A stretch of DNA of 64,000 nt from Natronomonas aquatica (GTDB lineage Archaea > Halobacteriota > Halobacteria > Halobacteriales > Haloarculaceae), in NCBI RefSeq assembly GCF_024449025.1, contig NZ_JAHLKM010000001.1:62001-126000 (forward strand). The letters run 5' to 3'. Shown here in pieces: positions 18,744 through 58,007 of the stretch; position 1 is the first letter of the stretch, and each line of letters begins with the position of its first letter. The notes beneath the pieces were generated by a model. It did no database searches. It saw only the letters and a program-made list of their open reading frames with translations, and had not been told where the DNA came from. The translations under genes and the position numbers were made by a program.

Positions 18744-20366
18744 TCAGAACGTCGTTACGGTCCCGTCCTTCCGCGGCTCGGTCGCTCCTGAGAGGGTTCC
18801 CTCCCGGTTCCGGACGATCTGTGCGCCGCCGAACATCCCCGGCGGCAGGACTTCCAGTTCGTGGCCCCGCCGGAGCAGCCCGTGTTGGACCGCCGTCGAG
18901 TGGCGGGCCTCGATCGCCAACCGGCCGGACTCCCGGTAGCGCCACCGCGGGACGTCGAGCGCTTCCTGCAGCGTCGCCCCGTCGTCGAGCAACCGCACGA
19001 GCGTCTGGAGGTGGCCCTGTGGCTGCATGTATCCGCCCATGACGCCGAACGCCGAGCAGTCCTCGGGACCGCGTTCGAGTATGGCGGGTATCAGCGTGTG
19101 AAACGGACGCTTTCCCGGTTCGATGCGATTGGGGTGATCCGGATTCAAAGAGAAGGACGCTCCGCGGTTCTGGAGGGCGATCCCCGTCTCGCCGGCGACG
19201 AGCCCGCTGCCGAAGCCAGCAAACCGGGAGTTGATGTACGAGACGACGTTGCCCTCGCTGTCGCCGACACACAGAAGCACGGTATCGGCGTCCTCGGCGT
19301 TCGCCTCGGGGACGCCGAAGGATACGTCCGACGCCGTCCCGTCGACGGTCGCCGCCCGCTTTTGTGCCCATTTTTCCGAGGCAAGCGGCGGGATCTCCTC
19401 GAAGTCGGGGTCGGTGATATAGCGGTGGCCGTCGTGGAAAGCCCGTTTCATCGCCTCTGCGAGGTAATGGATCCGGGCCGCCGAACCGGCTTCGTACTCG
19501 TCGACGCCGATCTCTTCGGCGATAGCGAGCGCCTCCAGGGCGATGAGTCCCTGGTTGTTCGGCGGCAGTTCGTACACCGTCGCGTCGCCGTACTCGACGG
19601 AGACGGGATCGGGGTACTCGACCTCGAAGTCCGCGAGGTCCTCGACGGTCAGAAAACCGCCCGCCCGCTGGATTTCCTCGGCGATGGCCTCGGCGATGTA
19701 GCCCTCGTAGACGACGTCTGCGCCCTCCTCGGCGATCGCCCGGAGCGACTCACCGAGCCGCTGCAGCCGGACCGTCTCGCCGGGTTCTGGGGCGCGCTCG
19801 CCGTCGACGAGGTACGCCGCCCGGGCGTGGTCGGACTCGAATAGCGTCTCGGCCTGCGTCCACTGGTCGGCGATCACTTCGGTGACCGGGTAGCCCTCCA
19901 TCGCGTACTCGATGGCCGGCTCGAGGACTTCGGCGAGCGAGAGGCGACCGAACTCGTCGACGGTCGCTTCCCATCCGCGGGCCGTTCCGGGGACCGTGAC
20001 CGTGTGGGGGCCCGTCTCCGGCATCGCTACGGTGTCCCGGCCGAGTCCCTGCTCGTCGGCGATGGCCGATCGGACCTGCTCTCTCGTCGCGTCGCTCGGT
20101 GCGCCCCCGCAGGCGCGCATGGCACCGACCTCGCCGTCGGCGTCACGATACAGCATGAAGACATCGCCGCCCAGTCCCGTCATCGTCGGTTCGGTGACGT
20201 TCAGCGTCGCGGCCGTCGCGACGGCCGCGTCGAACGCGTTGCCGCCCGTCCGGAGGGTTTCGAGGCCGGCTTCGGCCGCAAGCGGCTGGCTGGTCGCGAC
20301 CGCCCCGTTCGGGCCGTAGACGGTCGATCGGCGCGAGCCGAACTCGTCGACTGGCGTGTTTTCCAT
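18744..20366 (-). CDS. ggt: Gamma-glutamyltransferase family protein
   Basis: A 540-residue N-terminal-nucleophile enzyme precursor. The probable self-cleavage Thr is in AEDADTVLLCVGD (about residue 366), followed by GNVVSYINSRFAGFGSG and LNPDHPNRIEPGKRP, as in the small subunit of GGT. The large-subunit part has GGNAFDAAVATAATLNVTEP and GLGGDVFMLY. No Sec or Tat signal is seen, so it should be cytosolic, unlike bacterial periplasmic GGT. Haloarchaea use gamma-glutamylcysteine as a thiol, which may be its substrate. Confidence 0.88.
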   Translation of the reverse strand: MENTPVDEFGSRRSTVYGPNGAVATSQPLAAEAGLETLRTGGNAFDAAVATAATLNVTEPTMTGLGGDVFMLYRDADGEVGAMRACGGAPSDATREQVRSAIADEQGLGRDTVAMPETGPHTVTVPGTARGWEATVDEFGRLSLAEVLEPAIEYAMEGYPVTEVIADQWTQAETLFESDHARAAYLVDGERAPEPGETVRLQRLGESLRAIAEEGADVVYEGYIAEAIAEEIQRAGGFLTVEDLADFEVEYPDPVSVEYGDATVYELPPNNQGLIALEALAIAEEIGVDEYEAGSAARIHYLAEAMKRAFHDGHRYITDPDFEEIPPLASEKWAQKRAATVDGTASDVSFGVPEANAEDADTVLLCVGDSEGNVVSYINSRFAGFGSGLVAGETGIALQNRGASFSLNPDHPNRIEPGKRPFHTLIPAILERGPEDCSAFGVMGGYMQPQGHLQTLVRLLDDGATLQEALDVPRWRYRESGRLAIEARHSTAVQHGLLRRGHELEVLPPGMFGGAQIVRNREGTLSGATEPRKDGTVTTF

Positions 20367-53202: not shown

Positions 53203-54186
53203 TCACCGGCAGTCTGCCTCGGTGACGACCGCTTCCAGGGCATCCAGATGGAAGGCGATAGCCTCCTCGCGTCCGACTGCTGGGTAACGAGGGTTCGTCA
53301 CGGCCCCCGATGAATCGACCGCACTCTCCGCGATAGCCACTCCTCTGTGGATCGGATGGACCGTCGGAAAGTTCCTGATCTCCGCATAGCCGTCCCTGAA
53401 TGCCTGCCGAAGCGGCTCTGGATCGTCAGCGTACCAGTCGGCTACCAGATATTCGGACTTGGCGACCGAGAGGGCTGGCGGACCTGCGAGGGGTACTTCC
53501 CAGTCCACCACAGCAGTGACTGATCCGTCCGCAACCAGCGCGTTTCCGGGGCGAAAGTCCCAGGGAAACAGCCGTGATGGGTGGCTTGACTCGACTGCCG
53601 GGGTATCGAACAGCGCATCCAGGTCGCTCCGAACCGGATCGAACGCCGGCGGCAGTCGGGCGAGCGCCCGGCGACCGAAGTCTCGAAACCATTGGCTGAA
53701 ATCGGAGCGATCCGCGGTCAGGGATGACGTTTCTTCGGAGACAGATAGCCGGCCGAAAGCACCGAATCCGAACGCCTCGTGGAGGCGGGCTAACGCTTTG
53801 CCGAACCAGCGGGCGAGTCCACGCCGCGTCTCAGCGCTGACCGTAGTGAATCGTTCGTGTAGATCCTCCCCGGCGACATATGCGGTGAGCATGTATGCCA
53901 CGCCATCGTGTGTTCCCGCCGCCAGCACTGGCGGAACCGGCACGAAGGTACGCTGCCGGATCTTCAACAAGAGCGCCGCCTCGGTTCGCAGCCACGTTCG
54001 TTCGCTACAGACCTGTATCACGACCGGGCCCCGTGCTTCGAACCGGGCAATAGCGGTCTGTTTGCGGTTCCCTCGGTTGATCCGCGTCACCCCGATCGGG
54101 GATTCCTCGAGCACTCTGAGCGCAGCAGCTGCTGCGGCTCGCAGGGACTCGGTTTCGAATGCCTCCCCGAGTGACGGTTCGTTCAT
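53203..54186 (-). CDS. Aminoglycoside phosphotransferase-family kinase
   Basis: A 327-residue protein-kinase-like fold kinase. It shows the ATP-site Lys region RKQTAIARFEARG, the variable hinge YMLTAYVAGEDL, the catalytic segment LFPWDFRPGNALV (usual HGDxxxxN replaced by W-D-x-x-x-x-N) and the metal-binding VVDWEVPLAG. The substrate (aminoglycoside, amino alcohol or sugar) is unknown. It overlaps the HAD gene by 4 nt. Confidence 0.75.
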   Translation of the reverse strand: MNEPSLGEAFETESLRAAAAAALRVLEESPIGVTRINRGNRKQTAIARFEARGPVVIQVCSERTWLRTEAALLLKIRQRTFVPVPPVLAAGTHDGVAYMLTAYVAGEDLHERFTTVSAETRRGLARWFGKALARLHEAFGFGAFGRLSVSEETSSLTADRSDFSQWFRDFGRRALARLPPAFDPVRSDLDALFDTPAVESSHPSRLFPWDFRPGNALVADGSVTAVVDWEVPLAGPPALSVAKSEYLVADWYADDPEPLRQAFRDGYAEIRNFPTVHPIHRGVAIAESAVDSSGAVTNPRYPAVGREEAIAFHLDALEAVVTEADCR

Positions 54187-54857
54187 CGGTCACCTCGAAG
54201 AACCGATGGGAGGTCGGCCAGCGAGTCGAGGACGTACTCGGGTGAATACGCTCCGGCGTCTTCGCCGTCGTGTAACCACGCGACGGCGAGGCCGGCGTTT
54301 TGCCCGCCTGCAACGTCGTATTCCACCGTGTTTCCAACGTAGAGCGTCCGGTCGGGTTCCACACCGAGAGCATCGAGTGCTCTGTCGAACGGCAACGTGT
54401 GCGGCTTCGCCCGAGGCAATTCCGCGCCGAACACGACGGTCGCCAAGCGATCCGTGATGCCGATCGCCCCGAGTTTTGTCCGCTGTCGGTCGGCCGGACC
54501 GTTCGTAACGACACCCACAGGGCCGACCTCCTCGGCCGCGTCCAGTGCCTCCCGGGCTCCGGGGGCCAGCGCCACCTCAGTGTCGTCGATGAGGGAGAGA
54601 AGCGCCCGGGCAAGCGCGAGCGGATCGACGTCGGTCCGGTCCTGTTGGGCCGCCATCCTGGCGAACCCTGCGCCGTAGTATCCGACTGGGTCGTCGTGAT
54701 CGGGAGGGCCCGAGAGCGCGGCCCACAAGTCATCAGGCTTGCCGAACGGTGTCTCGCCTGTGCGGTCGAAGACCCGTTCGTACATCACCTCGCTGTCCTG
54801 AGTGCGGTGGCAGAGTGTCCCATCGAGGTCGAACAGGACGGCGTCGAAATCGCTCAC
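54183..54857 (-). CDS. HAD-superfamily phosphatase
   Basis: A 224-residue HAD hydrolase when started at GTG 54857 (MSDFDAVLFDLDGTLCH). Motif I is DLDGT, motif II TNGPADRQ, the Lys in RAKPHTLPF and motif IV YVGNTVEYDVAGG. An ATG at 54944 would add 29 residues (GEIRYPGGLEDID...), which is possible but less typical. Its ATGA overlap with the kinase gene makes a kinase-phosphatase pair. Confidence 0.78.
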   Translation of the reverse strand: MSDFDAVLFDLDGTLCHRTQDSEVMYERVFDRTGETPFGKPDDLWAALSGPPDHDDPVGYYGAGFARMAAQQDRTDVDPLALARALLSLIDDTEVALAPGAREALDAAEEVGPVGVVTNGPADRQRTKLGAIGITDRLATVVFGAELPRAKPHTLPFDRALDALGVEPDRTLYVGNTVEYDVAGGQNAGLAVAWLHDGEDAGAYSPEYVLDSLADLPSVLRGDR

Positions 54858-54962
54858 AGAACGGCGTTCGGTTCGGCGTAGCAAAACCCCGACGGCATAG
54901 GCATCGATATCCTCCAGTCCCCCGGGGTATCGGATCTCACCCACCGTTCTGTGTCCGGGCCG

Positions 54963-55955
54963 TCAATCGGATTCCCCATCAGGCGTCTCACCGAGTTCAT
55001 CAGGAACCCGTCCGCCGAGGGTGTTCCGGTTATGTGATCTCTCGAAATCTAGTTCGGGACCGGTCGGCACGATCCCACCCGGATTGATCTCCCCGTGACT
55101 TCGGTAGTAGTGCTCCTTGATGTGATCCATGTTGACCGTCTCGGCAACTCCCGGGAGTTGATAGATGTCCCTCGTGTACGCCCGGAGGTTCGGGTAGTCA
55201 CTGATGCGGCGAAGGTTAGTTTTGAAATGCGTGTAATACACCGCGTCGAAGCGTACCAGTGTCGGAAACAGCCGTAGGTCTGCGAGTGTCAGATCTTCGA
55301 GGAGGAACCGCCGATCCGAGAGAATCGATTCCCAGCGATCGAGCGCCTCGAAGATACCCCGGACGGCTGTCTCGTACTCGTCTTGGGTCGACGCGAAGCC
55401 AGCACGGTAGACGCCCTTGTTGATCGGAGCGTAGATCGCCTCGATTACCTCGTCGATCTCGCCACGGCGATCCGCCGGGTAGAGATCGACGCCATCGTAG
55501 TCAGTGAACGCGACGGCGAGTGTCCGCATGATTTCGTCGGATTCCTCGTTGACGATCGTCTCCTCGCGTTTGTCCCACAGGACGGGTACGGATACCCGCC
55601 CGGTGTAGGAGGAATCCGCTGTCGTGTACACCTCCCGGAGGTAATCACTGCCGTTGACCGTATCGGACGTACACCCCGCTTTTGTCGGGGTGAACTGCCA
55701 GCCGTCCTCGGCTCGATACGGATCGACGACATCCATCGTGACCGCGTCGTCGAGTCCGAGGAGTGTCCGGGTGAGGACCGCGCCATGAGCCCACGGGCAG
55801 GCCCGGGAGATGTACAGATGATAGCGCTCCGGGTCGGGCGGATGACGCCCGCCTTCTTGCAGTTTGTTTCGAAACGCCGTTTCGTTGTAGTCAATCTCCG
55901 CAGTGTCCTCGTTCGTGATGTCTGTACGCCAAGTGCCGTCTATGAGTCGTCCCAT
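54963..55955 (-). CDS. Glutathionyl-hydroquinone reductase-like GST (ECM4/YqjG family)
   Basis: A 330-residue protein. The catalytic Cys lies in ISRACPWAHGAVLTRTLL (usual ACPWAHR), followed by SVPVLWDKREETIVNEES (cis-Pro, Glu/Ser thiol site), YNPINKG-type IYAPINKGVYRAGF and the C-terminal domain DLTLADLRLFPTLVRFDAVYYTHFK. In this family the Cys removes thiols from hydroquinones. Haloarchaea use gamma-glutamylcysteine, so a thiol swap is expected. The start at 55955 is MGRLIDG. Confidence 0.88.
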   Translation of the reverse strand: MGRLIDGTWRTDITNEDTAEIDYNETAFRNKLQEGGRHPPDPERYHLYISRACPWAHGAVLTRTLLGLDDAVTMDVVDPYRAEDGWQFTPTKAGCTSDTVNGSDYLREVYTTADSSYTGRVSVPVLWDKREETIVNEESDEIMRTLAVAFTDYDGVDLYPADRRGEIDEVIEAIYAPINKGVYRAGFASTQDEYETAVRGIFEALDRWESILSDRRFLLEDLTLADLRLFPTLVRFDAVYYTHFKTNLRRISDYPNLRAYTRDIYQLPGVAETVNMDHIKEHYYRSHGEINPGGIVPTGPELDFERSHNRNTLGGRVPDELGETPDGESD

Positions 55956-56016
55956 TGTTGTAGGTTGGATCGTGATCGGTTCAGTGATCGATTCGGCCGG
56001 TCGTTTGCGTGTCTGC

Positions 56017-56847
56017 TCACTCGGAGTTTTCGTGTGCAACCGTTTTCCACAGCGATCCGGTTCCCCGAATCGACTCTTCGATTCTCCCTGCCGAGGCGAG
56101 GTCTTCGAGCCGCAGTCGTGCTATGTCGTCGCTGAGGTTGTACACCTCCGCGACTTCCCGGGTCGCAACCGGGCTGTACTGTTCAACGAACTTCGGGAGC
56201 GGTCGCGGAGGCGTCCGTTCGAGATCGGGGGCGACTGCCTCTATCGCCTCGGCCAGGGAGTCAAACGACTGAGATCCCGCAAGCTGCCTTTCGTCATCCC
56301 CGGCCTCGACTCGAAACGTCGGAAACACTGTCGTGCCCTGCTCGCGGGAGTGTACTCGGTCTTCTTCGAACGCCGCGCGTGCCCGATCACCGGCGAACGC
56401 CGCCCGGAACCGCTCGACGTCGAGACCGACGTCAGCGGCGAGATCGGTCAGTACCTCACGGTCGCCGATGTTCTGGCGTTCCGTGGCGATTGCCTCACGC
56501 AATCGTCTGAGATACCGGTTGGCAGCGTCGGTTCCCTGAAGTTCTGCGGCTTCGTAGGCGATACATGCCGGGTACGACGACCGGGGTGGGTTGGTTAGCC
56601 AGATGTCGGCATCGACGGGCATGCCGTGCTGTCGCGCAGCCGTCTCCCAGTGGGGCGCGACATCTGCAGGCTCCGTGATTCCGTTAGCGGCATCAGAGAA
56701 CGATCCGAAATCTGCGACAAGTCCACCCATAACGAACCTGGTGTCGATCTGATCGCCGTACGTCTCCTCGATACGACGCAGGACGGGTTCAGCACCCCAG
56801 CACCACGTACAGAACGGATCAGTGAACTCGGTAAGCGTGACCTGCAT
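56017..56847 (-). CDS. DsbA/FrnE-like thioredoxin-fold oxidoreductase
   Basis: A 276-residue DsbA-family protein. The CxxC site is in FTDPFCTWCWGAEPVL (Cys about 13 and 16), helices follow (SSYPACIAYEAAELQG), and the cis-Pro loop is in TTVFPTFRVE. An extra C-terminal region, VEQYSPVATREVAEVYNLSDDIARLRLEDLASAG, looks like a small winged helix and is not usual for FrnE. It lacks a signal peptide, so it is cytosolic. Confidence 0.85.
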   Translation of the reverse strand: MQVTLTEFTDPFCTWCWGAEPVLRRIEETYGDQIDTRFVMGGLVADFGSFSDAANGITEPADVAPHWETAARQHGMPVDADIWLTNPPRSSYPACIAYEAAELQGTDAANRYLRRLREAIATERQNIGDREVLTDLAADVGLDVERFRAAFAGDRARAAFEEDRVHSREQGTTVFPTFRVEAGDDERQLAGSQSFDSLAEAIEAVAPDLERTPPRPLPKFVEQYSPVATREVAEVYNLSDDIARLRLEDLASAGRIEESIRGTGSLWKTVAHENSE

Positions 56848-56851
56848 GGAA

Positions 56852-57271
56852 TCACCACAACCCAATGCCGAGGGCGTACGGCCACGTCGTGGCTGACAGT
56901 GCGAGAAAGACCATCGCACCCGCGGCGAGGCCGACGTTCTTCAGGAAGTGATACTCCTCGTTATCGCGTTGCATACCCGTTTCGTTCCAGAAGTCGTGCA
57001 TTACGGGCGTGACGCCGATGAAGAATGCGAGGATTGTGATCGCCCCGAGAGCGGGATACGCACCGATGAGGATGGCTGCTGCGCCCGCAAGCAACGCGAA
57101 TGAGGTGGCGGGCACCAGTAGCCGCGGGAGGGGCGCACCCTTGCTCGCAGCGTAGTCGATCGCTCCGGAGAGATCCAGCAAGTTCCCGAGCGCGAGGTAT
57201 CCGAGGACTGCTGCGAACAGCGTTCGAGCGATCAACAACGCCTCTGCGGTCCCGGTCGCTTCGAGCGTCAT
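56852..57271 (-). CDS. DoxX-family membrane protein
   Basis: A 139-residue four-helix protein: LLIARTLFAAVLGYLALGNLLDL, LVPATSFALLAGAAAILIG, AITILAFFIGVTPVMHDFWNE and NVGLAAGAMVFLALS. DoxX proteins link to thiol/quinone redox chemistry. It starts the run DoxX-DsbA-GHR-HAD-kinase and its stop is 4 nt upstream of the DsbA start. Confidence 0.82.
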   Translation of the reverse strand: MTLEATGTAEALLIARTLFAAVLGYLALGNLLDLSGAIDYAASKGAPLPRLLVPATSFALLAGAAAILIGAYPALGAITILAFFIGVTPVMHDFWNETGMQRDNEEYHFLKNVGLAAGAMVFLALSATTWPYALGIGLW

Positions 57272-57647
57272 CAGCTATCAACCTCCACTGAAATGTTGGT
57301 CAGTTGTCTATTCGTACTGTGAATGCCTTGCTTCAGCCGCGAATACGGTTTTACGTGCATCGCATTCGAGACGATGAGCGCCACCCATATAAATTATCAA
57401 GTAAATTATGTTTTACCGAGGGAAGTTGTGAATATCAGGTGTACCGAGGTATACCGGGGTCTCGCGATATCGTTCAACCAGCAGATAAAACGGCGAAGGG
57501 ACCTACACCTACCCTCTCCGAAAATCAAAAAATACGATCTCGACGATACATCGAGTGTATGATGACGAAGATGTAACCGTTACTGCGATCAATCCACCGG
57601 GATGAGCACCCTTCACTTTTTTCTTCAATTAACGCAATTAACGAGTA
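57272..57647. other. AT-rich divergent promoter region between DoxX and HxlR
   Basis: About 375 nt with low GC. It contains actgaaatgttggtcagt (weak inverted repeat, 57285-57302) near the DoxX start and, near HxlR, two adjacent copies of caattaacg at 57626-57643. The open frame 57304-57576 is not convincing. Confidence 0.5.
57626..57643 (+). repeat. Tandem 9-bp direct repeat caattaacg, putative HxlR-type binding site
   Basis: Two abutting copies, 5-22 nt before the HxlR ATG. A single copy also occurs at 39264-39272 ahead of the second arsR. A regulator could bind here. Confidence 0.4.
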
Positions 57648-58007
57648 ATGACTGCTGACGACGAGCGACTGGCCGAACTGAACCCGGCGGTGTGTCCGAC
57701 GGTCGAATCACTGAACGTCATCGGAACGCAGTGGCGTTTGAACGTGCTCTACGATCTTCAGGACGGCGAAAAGAGATTCAACGAGCTCAAGGAATCGACG
57801 GGGGCGAGTTCGCGAACCCTCTCGCAGACACTCGATACTCTCGAAGAGTACGGGCTGGTCACCGAGCGAACGGAGCGGGCGTCGCCGATCGCCGTTTACT
57901 ACCGGTTGACCGAGAAAGGTGAAGCACTCGAAGCCGCCTTCGACGAAATCGACGCGTGGGCGCGTGAGTACATGGACGTAGCTGAACCGGAGATCCAGTC
58001 GGAGTAG
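57648..58007 (+). CDS. HxlR-family winged-helix regulator
   Basis: A 119-residue HxlR-type regulator: CPTVESLNVIGTQWRLNVLYDLQDGEKRFNELKESTGASSRTLSQTLDTLEEYGLV with the wing ASPIAVYYRLTEKGEALE. One Cys (16) precedes the helix-turn-helix and may sense thiol stress or electrophiles. It is divergent from the DoxX-DsbA-GHR run, which it probably controls. Confidence 0.88.
   Translation: MTADDERLAELNPAVCPTVESLNVIGTQWRLNVLYDLQDGEKRFNELKESTGASSRTLSQTLDTLEEYGLVTERTERASPIAVYYRLTEKGEALEAAFDEIDAWAREYMDVAEPEIQSE

Follow-up and report, generated by a model that had tools for sequence, protein, structure and literature searches.

The window (the whole stretch of 64,000 nucleotides of Natronomonas aquatica DNA analysed here) contains an HxlR-type regulator which faces a series of closely spaced minus-strand genes. 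The locus raises the question of which of these genes belong together, and to what they would respond. We consider it rather probable that HxlR, DoxX, a SpxH-like protein and a GHR form a horizontally mobile haloarchaeal regulon of thiol/electrophile defence, responsive to electrophiles or quinones.

Gene content and distribution of the cassette

All six open reading frames of the original prediction are present, in the families it had named (APH, HAD, GST, DsbA, DoxX and HxlR; Table 1). HxlR is divergent from the series opened by DoxX, across an AT-rich interval (45% GC, compared to 65% for the window). The DoxX stop is followed after 4 bp by the start of the DsbA-like gene, and HAD and APH overlap by 4 bp. 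The start of GHR, previously placed at 56039, was corrected to the ATG at 55955 because homologues begin with MGRLI and are 330 aa long. The most likely start of HAD is the GTG at 54857, 105 bp from the GHR stop.

Table 1. Features of the HxlR-DoxX locus, in positions of the window
Feature	Position	Strand	Description
HxlR/DUF24 regulator	57648..58007	+	119 aa; PF01638 5e-21
Operator dyad O1 GGTATACCTCGGTACACC	57438..57455	-	PWM rank 1 in window, leave-group-out
Weaker dyad O2 GGTAAAACATAATTTACT	57400..57417	-	38 bp (2 x 19) from O1
Probable TATA box of DoxX operon TTTATATG	57386..57393	-	from sequence; directly downstream of O2
Small ORF	57271..57360	-	29 codons; leaderless-type start; stop overlaps DoxX ATG
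DoxX family membrane protein	56852..57271	-	139 aa; PF07681 8.5e-6
YjbH/SpxH-homologous DsbA-like protein	56017..56847	-	276 aa; CTWC; SpxH-type domain C-terminal; Thioredoxin_5/DSBA
GHR, Xi-class GST (glutathionyl-hydroquinone reductase type)	54963..55955	-	330 aa; GST_N/GST_C; CPWA motif, Tyr triad
HAD hydrolase, outside cassette (second module)	54183..54857	-	PF00702
APH-family kinase, outside cassette (second module)	53203..54186	-	PF01636

The first reading of the locus took all six genes as a single electrophile operon, in agreement with their common strand and the short gap between GHR and HAD. HAD and APH are however found next to each other, away from the cassette, in eight genomes (G022, G016, G021, G026, G001, G009, G004 and G003), two of which, G001 and G009, hold both the cassette and the pair, far apart. 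APH does not adjoin the cassette in Halovenus aranensis or elsewhere. These placements largely refute the six genes as a conserved unit and make a six-gene operon highly improbable; since HAD and APH are paired away from the cassette we excluded them from it, and gene order indicates that they constitute a separate conserved two-gene module.

The four other genes recur together. Linkage of HxlR, DoxX, the SpxH-like gene and GHR was observed at at least eight other haloarchaeal loci, some of them plasmid-borne, and the order of the genes differs between loci. They include those of H. aranensis, G191, G170, G002, G001 and G009, together with one plasmid locus each from Haloarcula litorea and Halobellus limi. 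The H. aranensis proteins are respectively 85, 63, 68 and 71% identical to HxlR, DoxX, the DsbA-like protein and GHR of the window. The DsbA-like gene has a scattered distribution, being detected at E 1e-15 in 13 genomes out of the 243 in the order; its close homologues are mostly accompanied by GHR, DoxX and an HxlR. A scan of genome contigs with DsbA gave two loci, and the set was widened by whole-genome searches and plasmid records. Partial sets were also found: G023 has HxlR, DoxX and GHR and misses the SpxH-like gene; frameshifts disrupt the HxlR-DoxX-SpxH-like set of G030 (L052/L091); the HxlR closest to the G191 cassette is about 14 kb from it, adjoining a second SpxH-like gene; and a plasmid of Haloarcula pelagica carries SpxH-like and HTH genes, with neither DoxX nor GHR in the 16.8 kb read. 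Comparison of these loci gives strong evidence for one regulon. No description of the cassette was found in the literature (open-access text).

Several neighbouring gene families were recorded during this survey. Related clusters (L086, L087, L088, L089, L147 and L148) have AzlC/AzlD added, and variously an MFS, FMN-reductase-like, citrate-synthase-like or cystathionine-lyase-like protein; the AzlCD, citrate-synthase-like and cystathionine-lyase-like neighbours may reflect sulfur or amino-acid chemistry. G030 retains a further SpxH-like copy (L092), with an STWC motif. A distinct family of longer DsbA-like proteins (about 390-400 aa; L096, L098 and L102), unrelated to the cassette, sits behind a protein of 280-410 aa and recurs in haloarchaea, partly on plasmids.

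Proposed operator dyads and the DoxX promoter

An 18-bp dyad of consensus GGTnTA-n6-TAnACC is newly described here. Sites were initially chosen with the consensus of the window and H. aranensis loci, and then tested. The conserved block of these two intervals scores 67, compared to a maximum of 30 in shuffles. No other site of the quality of O1 occurs within the 64 kb window, and the long dyad consensus, with up to three mismatches, is met in the genome of the window (G000) only at the place of O1, in overlapping registers. Matrices of 18-mers (PWM) were trained without each locus's own group. With this leave-group-out procedure a cassette promoter site ranks first in all eight training loci, complete or broken, and certain secondary dyads of the training set rank third or fourth.

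Dyads were also found at loci outside the training set. They are located 5' of the SpxH-like gene (7893) and of DoxX (10910) in Haloarcula litorea (L147), in the cassette promoter of Halobellus limi (7896, L148), between HxlR and the SpxH-like gene in G191 (5223, L085) and upstream of DoxX in G023 (10233, L090). The scan of Haloarcula pelagica gave nothing convincing. The spacing between O1 and O2 is repeated in H. aranensis (9412/9450, L070) and G191 (5223/5261). More generally, the best non-overlapping neighbour lies at exactly 19 or 38 bp for 15 of the 18 dyads, where 0.58 are expected (mean of 1000 shuffles, maximum 3); several sites share descent, so that these spacing counts and the rank counts above are not all independent. 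The second dyad of each pair is weak, and O2, the promoter-proximal one, abuts the TATA region. The existence of one cassette with one operator family is well supported.

The dyads would be bound by HxlR, as we infer from their co-occurrence, HxlR being the regulator common to the cassettes. An unrelated winged-helix regulator is also present in G170, G002, G001/G009 and the two plasmid clusters. Although YodB and QsrR repress their targets, a dyad placed just upstream of BRE/TATA could also serve activation. A scan for bacterial-type promoters and terminators performed no better than on shuffles. Additional dyads were seen 5' of AzlC in G001/G009 and of a DMT transporter in Halobellus limi.

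In G191 a dyad is also located 5' of a benzoate-CoA-ligase-family gene, near the PaaB/PaaC genes, a placement which hints at aromatic intermediates as the quinone source in that species. The cassette could belong to a regulon for catabolism of aromatic or sulfur compounds, degrading its substrates via thiol conjugates instead of serving general stress. The proximity of the G191 cassette to Paa epoxidase subunits agrees with such a role, as do the cystathionine-lyase-like, AzlCD, FMN reductase and MFS genes of other clusters. These neighbours nevertheless differ from species to species, the constant part being HxlR, DoxX, GHR and, in most cases, the SpxH-like gene, and we regard catabolism as improbable.

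The interval from the TATA box to the DoxX start is occupied by a small ORF. A coupled small ORF of this type, 20-31 codons long, precedes DoxX at each of the 11 cassette promoters. It is present at 26 of the 33 DoxX loci in total; among 250 control genes, 28 have one (Fisher p 9e-16, the rows not being independent). The other DoxX loci of this survey (L070, L084, L086-L091, L147, L148 and L154-L173) include solo HxlR-DoxX loci, where the small ORF also occurs. The peptide is weakly conserved between groups, so translational coupling seems likelier than a functional microprotein.

Candidate sensor, thiol enzymes and inducers

The best PDB matches of HxlR are YodB (5hs7, 2.7e-16) and QsrR (1e-12). 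The protein combines a DUF24 winged helix with an N-terminal cysteine of the redox-sensing type: Cys16, its sole cysteine, aligns with Cys6 of YodB and Cys5 of QsrR, and the N-terminal cysteine is kept in all cassette HxlRs. YodB and QsrR sense quinones through these two residues, which become quinone-alkylated (PMC6798810, PMC8063818). Electrophile sensing by a thiol is moderately supported. The second, C-terminal cysteine of the YodB-type intersubunit disulfide is absent from the window HxlR and from the other intact cassette HxlRs, while the solo DoxX loci encode HxlRs with a second cysteine; the single cysteine favours a one-cysteine mechanism.

This bears on a second possible inducer. YodB-family sensors respond to diamide as well (PMC8063818), Xi GSTs show thioltransferase activity (PMC7278568), and the SpxH-like proteins of most cassettes have a CTWC motif. 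The genes could hence form a disulfide or hypochlorite stress regulon induced by oxidants, with the SpxH-like protein as main thiol-disulfide enzyme and GHR as a thioltransferase of deglutathionylase type which would not act on quinones. With one cysteine, however, the Cys6-Cys101' disulfide of YodB is impossible in intact cassette HxlRs, and one SpxH-like protein has CTWS and another STWC. We consider an oxidant-induced regulon unlikely.

The DsbA-like protein had been described as FrnE-like with an extra C-terminal domain. The DsbA-like character and the extra domain stand, and the FrnE identity was rejected: in profile searches FrnE matches residues 97-205 only (1.4e-9), whereas YjbH of Geobacillus (6ghb, also 6gho) matches residues 4-269 at 3.5e-49. 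As this match extends along the whole length, C-terminal domain included, we call the protein SpxH-like; both a DsbA-like domain and a C-terminal SpxH domain are present. Foldseek also gave 6gho/6ghb as top matches (1.7e-18), which we take as supporting evidence because the model has a mean pLDDT of 70 and poor global geometry. The cysteines are C13 and C16, forming the single CXXC (CTWC), and C95. The CXXC motif is variable in Firmicutes YjbH/SpxH too (PMC7253607). Among the eight cassette genomes, none has Spx (Spx/ArsC, PF03960) and none has ClpX (TIGR00382) over cut-off, so the protein cannot be classified as a working Spx adaptor.

GHR matches NmGHR (6gzf, 3e-109) and E. coli YqjG (3r3e, 1.5e-88) and retains the CPWA motif and the Tyr triad (residues as named in PMC6345682). 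It carries HYYRSHxxINP like YqjG; core haloarchaeal GHRs mostly have HYYTTHPDVNP. In the tree, eight cassette GHRs and two others make one group (support 99/98), separate from the core haloarchaeal group which includes NmGHR. The family is present in 25 of 25 good-quality genomes (40 related genomes surveyed), and G000 has two full-length members, one in the window and one of the core group outside it (G000:C19:24918-25889). In three annotated GHR plasmid records, neither DsbA nor DoxX adjoins GHR. NmGHR, the sole characterised haloarchaeal GHR found here, was crystallised and had no activity with benzoquinone and gamma-glutamylcysteine or glutathione, its His-tag blocking the site (PMC6345682). 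We counted this inactivity against the regulon, although NmGHR belongs to the other clade and was blocked by the tag.

Concerning the thiol, gshA is present in all eight genomes and gshB gave weak partial ATP-grasp matches only. This is in line with the expectation of gamma-glutamylcysteine, and not glutathione, as haloarchaeal thiol (PMC7278568). The gamma-glutamyltransferase also noted in the window is real (18744-20366, minus strand, TIGR00066 over cut-off); it lies 33 kb from the cassette, and none was seen beside the cassette at the other cassette loci. On a plasmid of Haladaptatus salinisoli (L151), a gene of the gamma-glutamyltransferase family lies near a GHR.

Returning to the electrophile/quinone regulon, the following scheme can be proposed, in which we infer the inducer, the thiol and the binding of HxlR. 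An HxlR dimer would occupy the tandem dyads beside the TATA box and repress the DoxX operon. A quinone or other soft electrophile would alkylate Cys16, or a mixed disulfide would form there, and HxlR would be released. DoxX would act at the membrane, possibly on quinones. The substrates of GHR would be thiol-hydroquinone conjugates, from which it would strip the low-molecular-weight thiol, gamma-glutamylcysteine being the likeliest. The SpxH-like protein would have a thiol-disulfide or adaptor role with partners other than Spx and ClpX, which were not found. The most detailed form of this scheme is a mobile haloarchaeal quinone regulon with a one-cysteine HxlR, operators spaced by 19 bp, a hydroquinone reductase dependent on gamma-glutamylcysteine, a SpxH-like protein without Spx/ClpX and a translated leader ORF coupled to DoxX; we hold it tentatively, below an even chance. 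The predicted electrophile/thiol module under HxlR is supported by its YodB/QsrR-type regulator, its conserved operator array and its recurrent clustering, with four genes and not six.

Comparison with known systems

The cassette provides a regulated, operator-defined GHR paralogue, tied to a sensor of quinone type, that can be assayed in place of the inactive NmGHR, and with it a route to testing quinone detoxification in archaea without glutathione. It also places a SpxH-family protein outside the Spx/ClpXP context, which bears on roles of SpxH beyond that of Spx adaptor.

The nearest relatives of the regulator are YodB/CatR of B. subtilis and QsrR of S. aureus, which share with it the DUF24/HxlR family and the conserved N-terminal cysteine, and whose targets are quinone-defence enzymes (PMC6798810). 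The haloarchaeal system differs in being archaeal, in having its own operator and one cysteine only, and in its targets: where the bacterial regulators control azoreductases, nitroreductases and dioxygenases, it has GHR, DoxX and the SpxH-like protein. Solo haloarchaeal HxlR-DoxX loci resemble the cassette by an HxlR near or divergent to DoxX and by the coupled small ORF 5' of DoxX. They differ by the second cysteine of their HxlR and by having no adjoining GHR or SpxH-like gene, and no close dyad match was found in those examined. The SpxH-like protein is homologous to YjbH/SpxH (6ghb, 6gho) along its full length, C-terminal domain included, with a CXXC motif that likewise varies among members; unlike its Firmicutes counterparts it occurs with no Spx/ArsC or ClpX over cut-off in the eight cassette genomes and is linked to GHR and DoxX. 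Finally, the window GHR shares with NmGHR (6gzf) and E. coli YqjG the CPWA motif, the Tyr triad and, by homology, the fold, but compared to NmGHR, an inactive member of the core clade, it belongs to a separate and patchy clade linked to HxlR.
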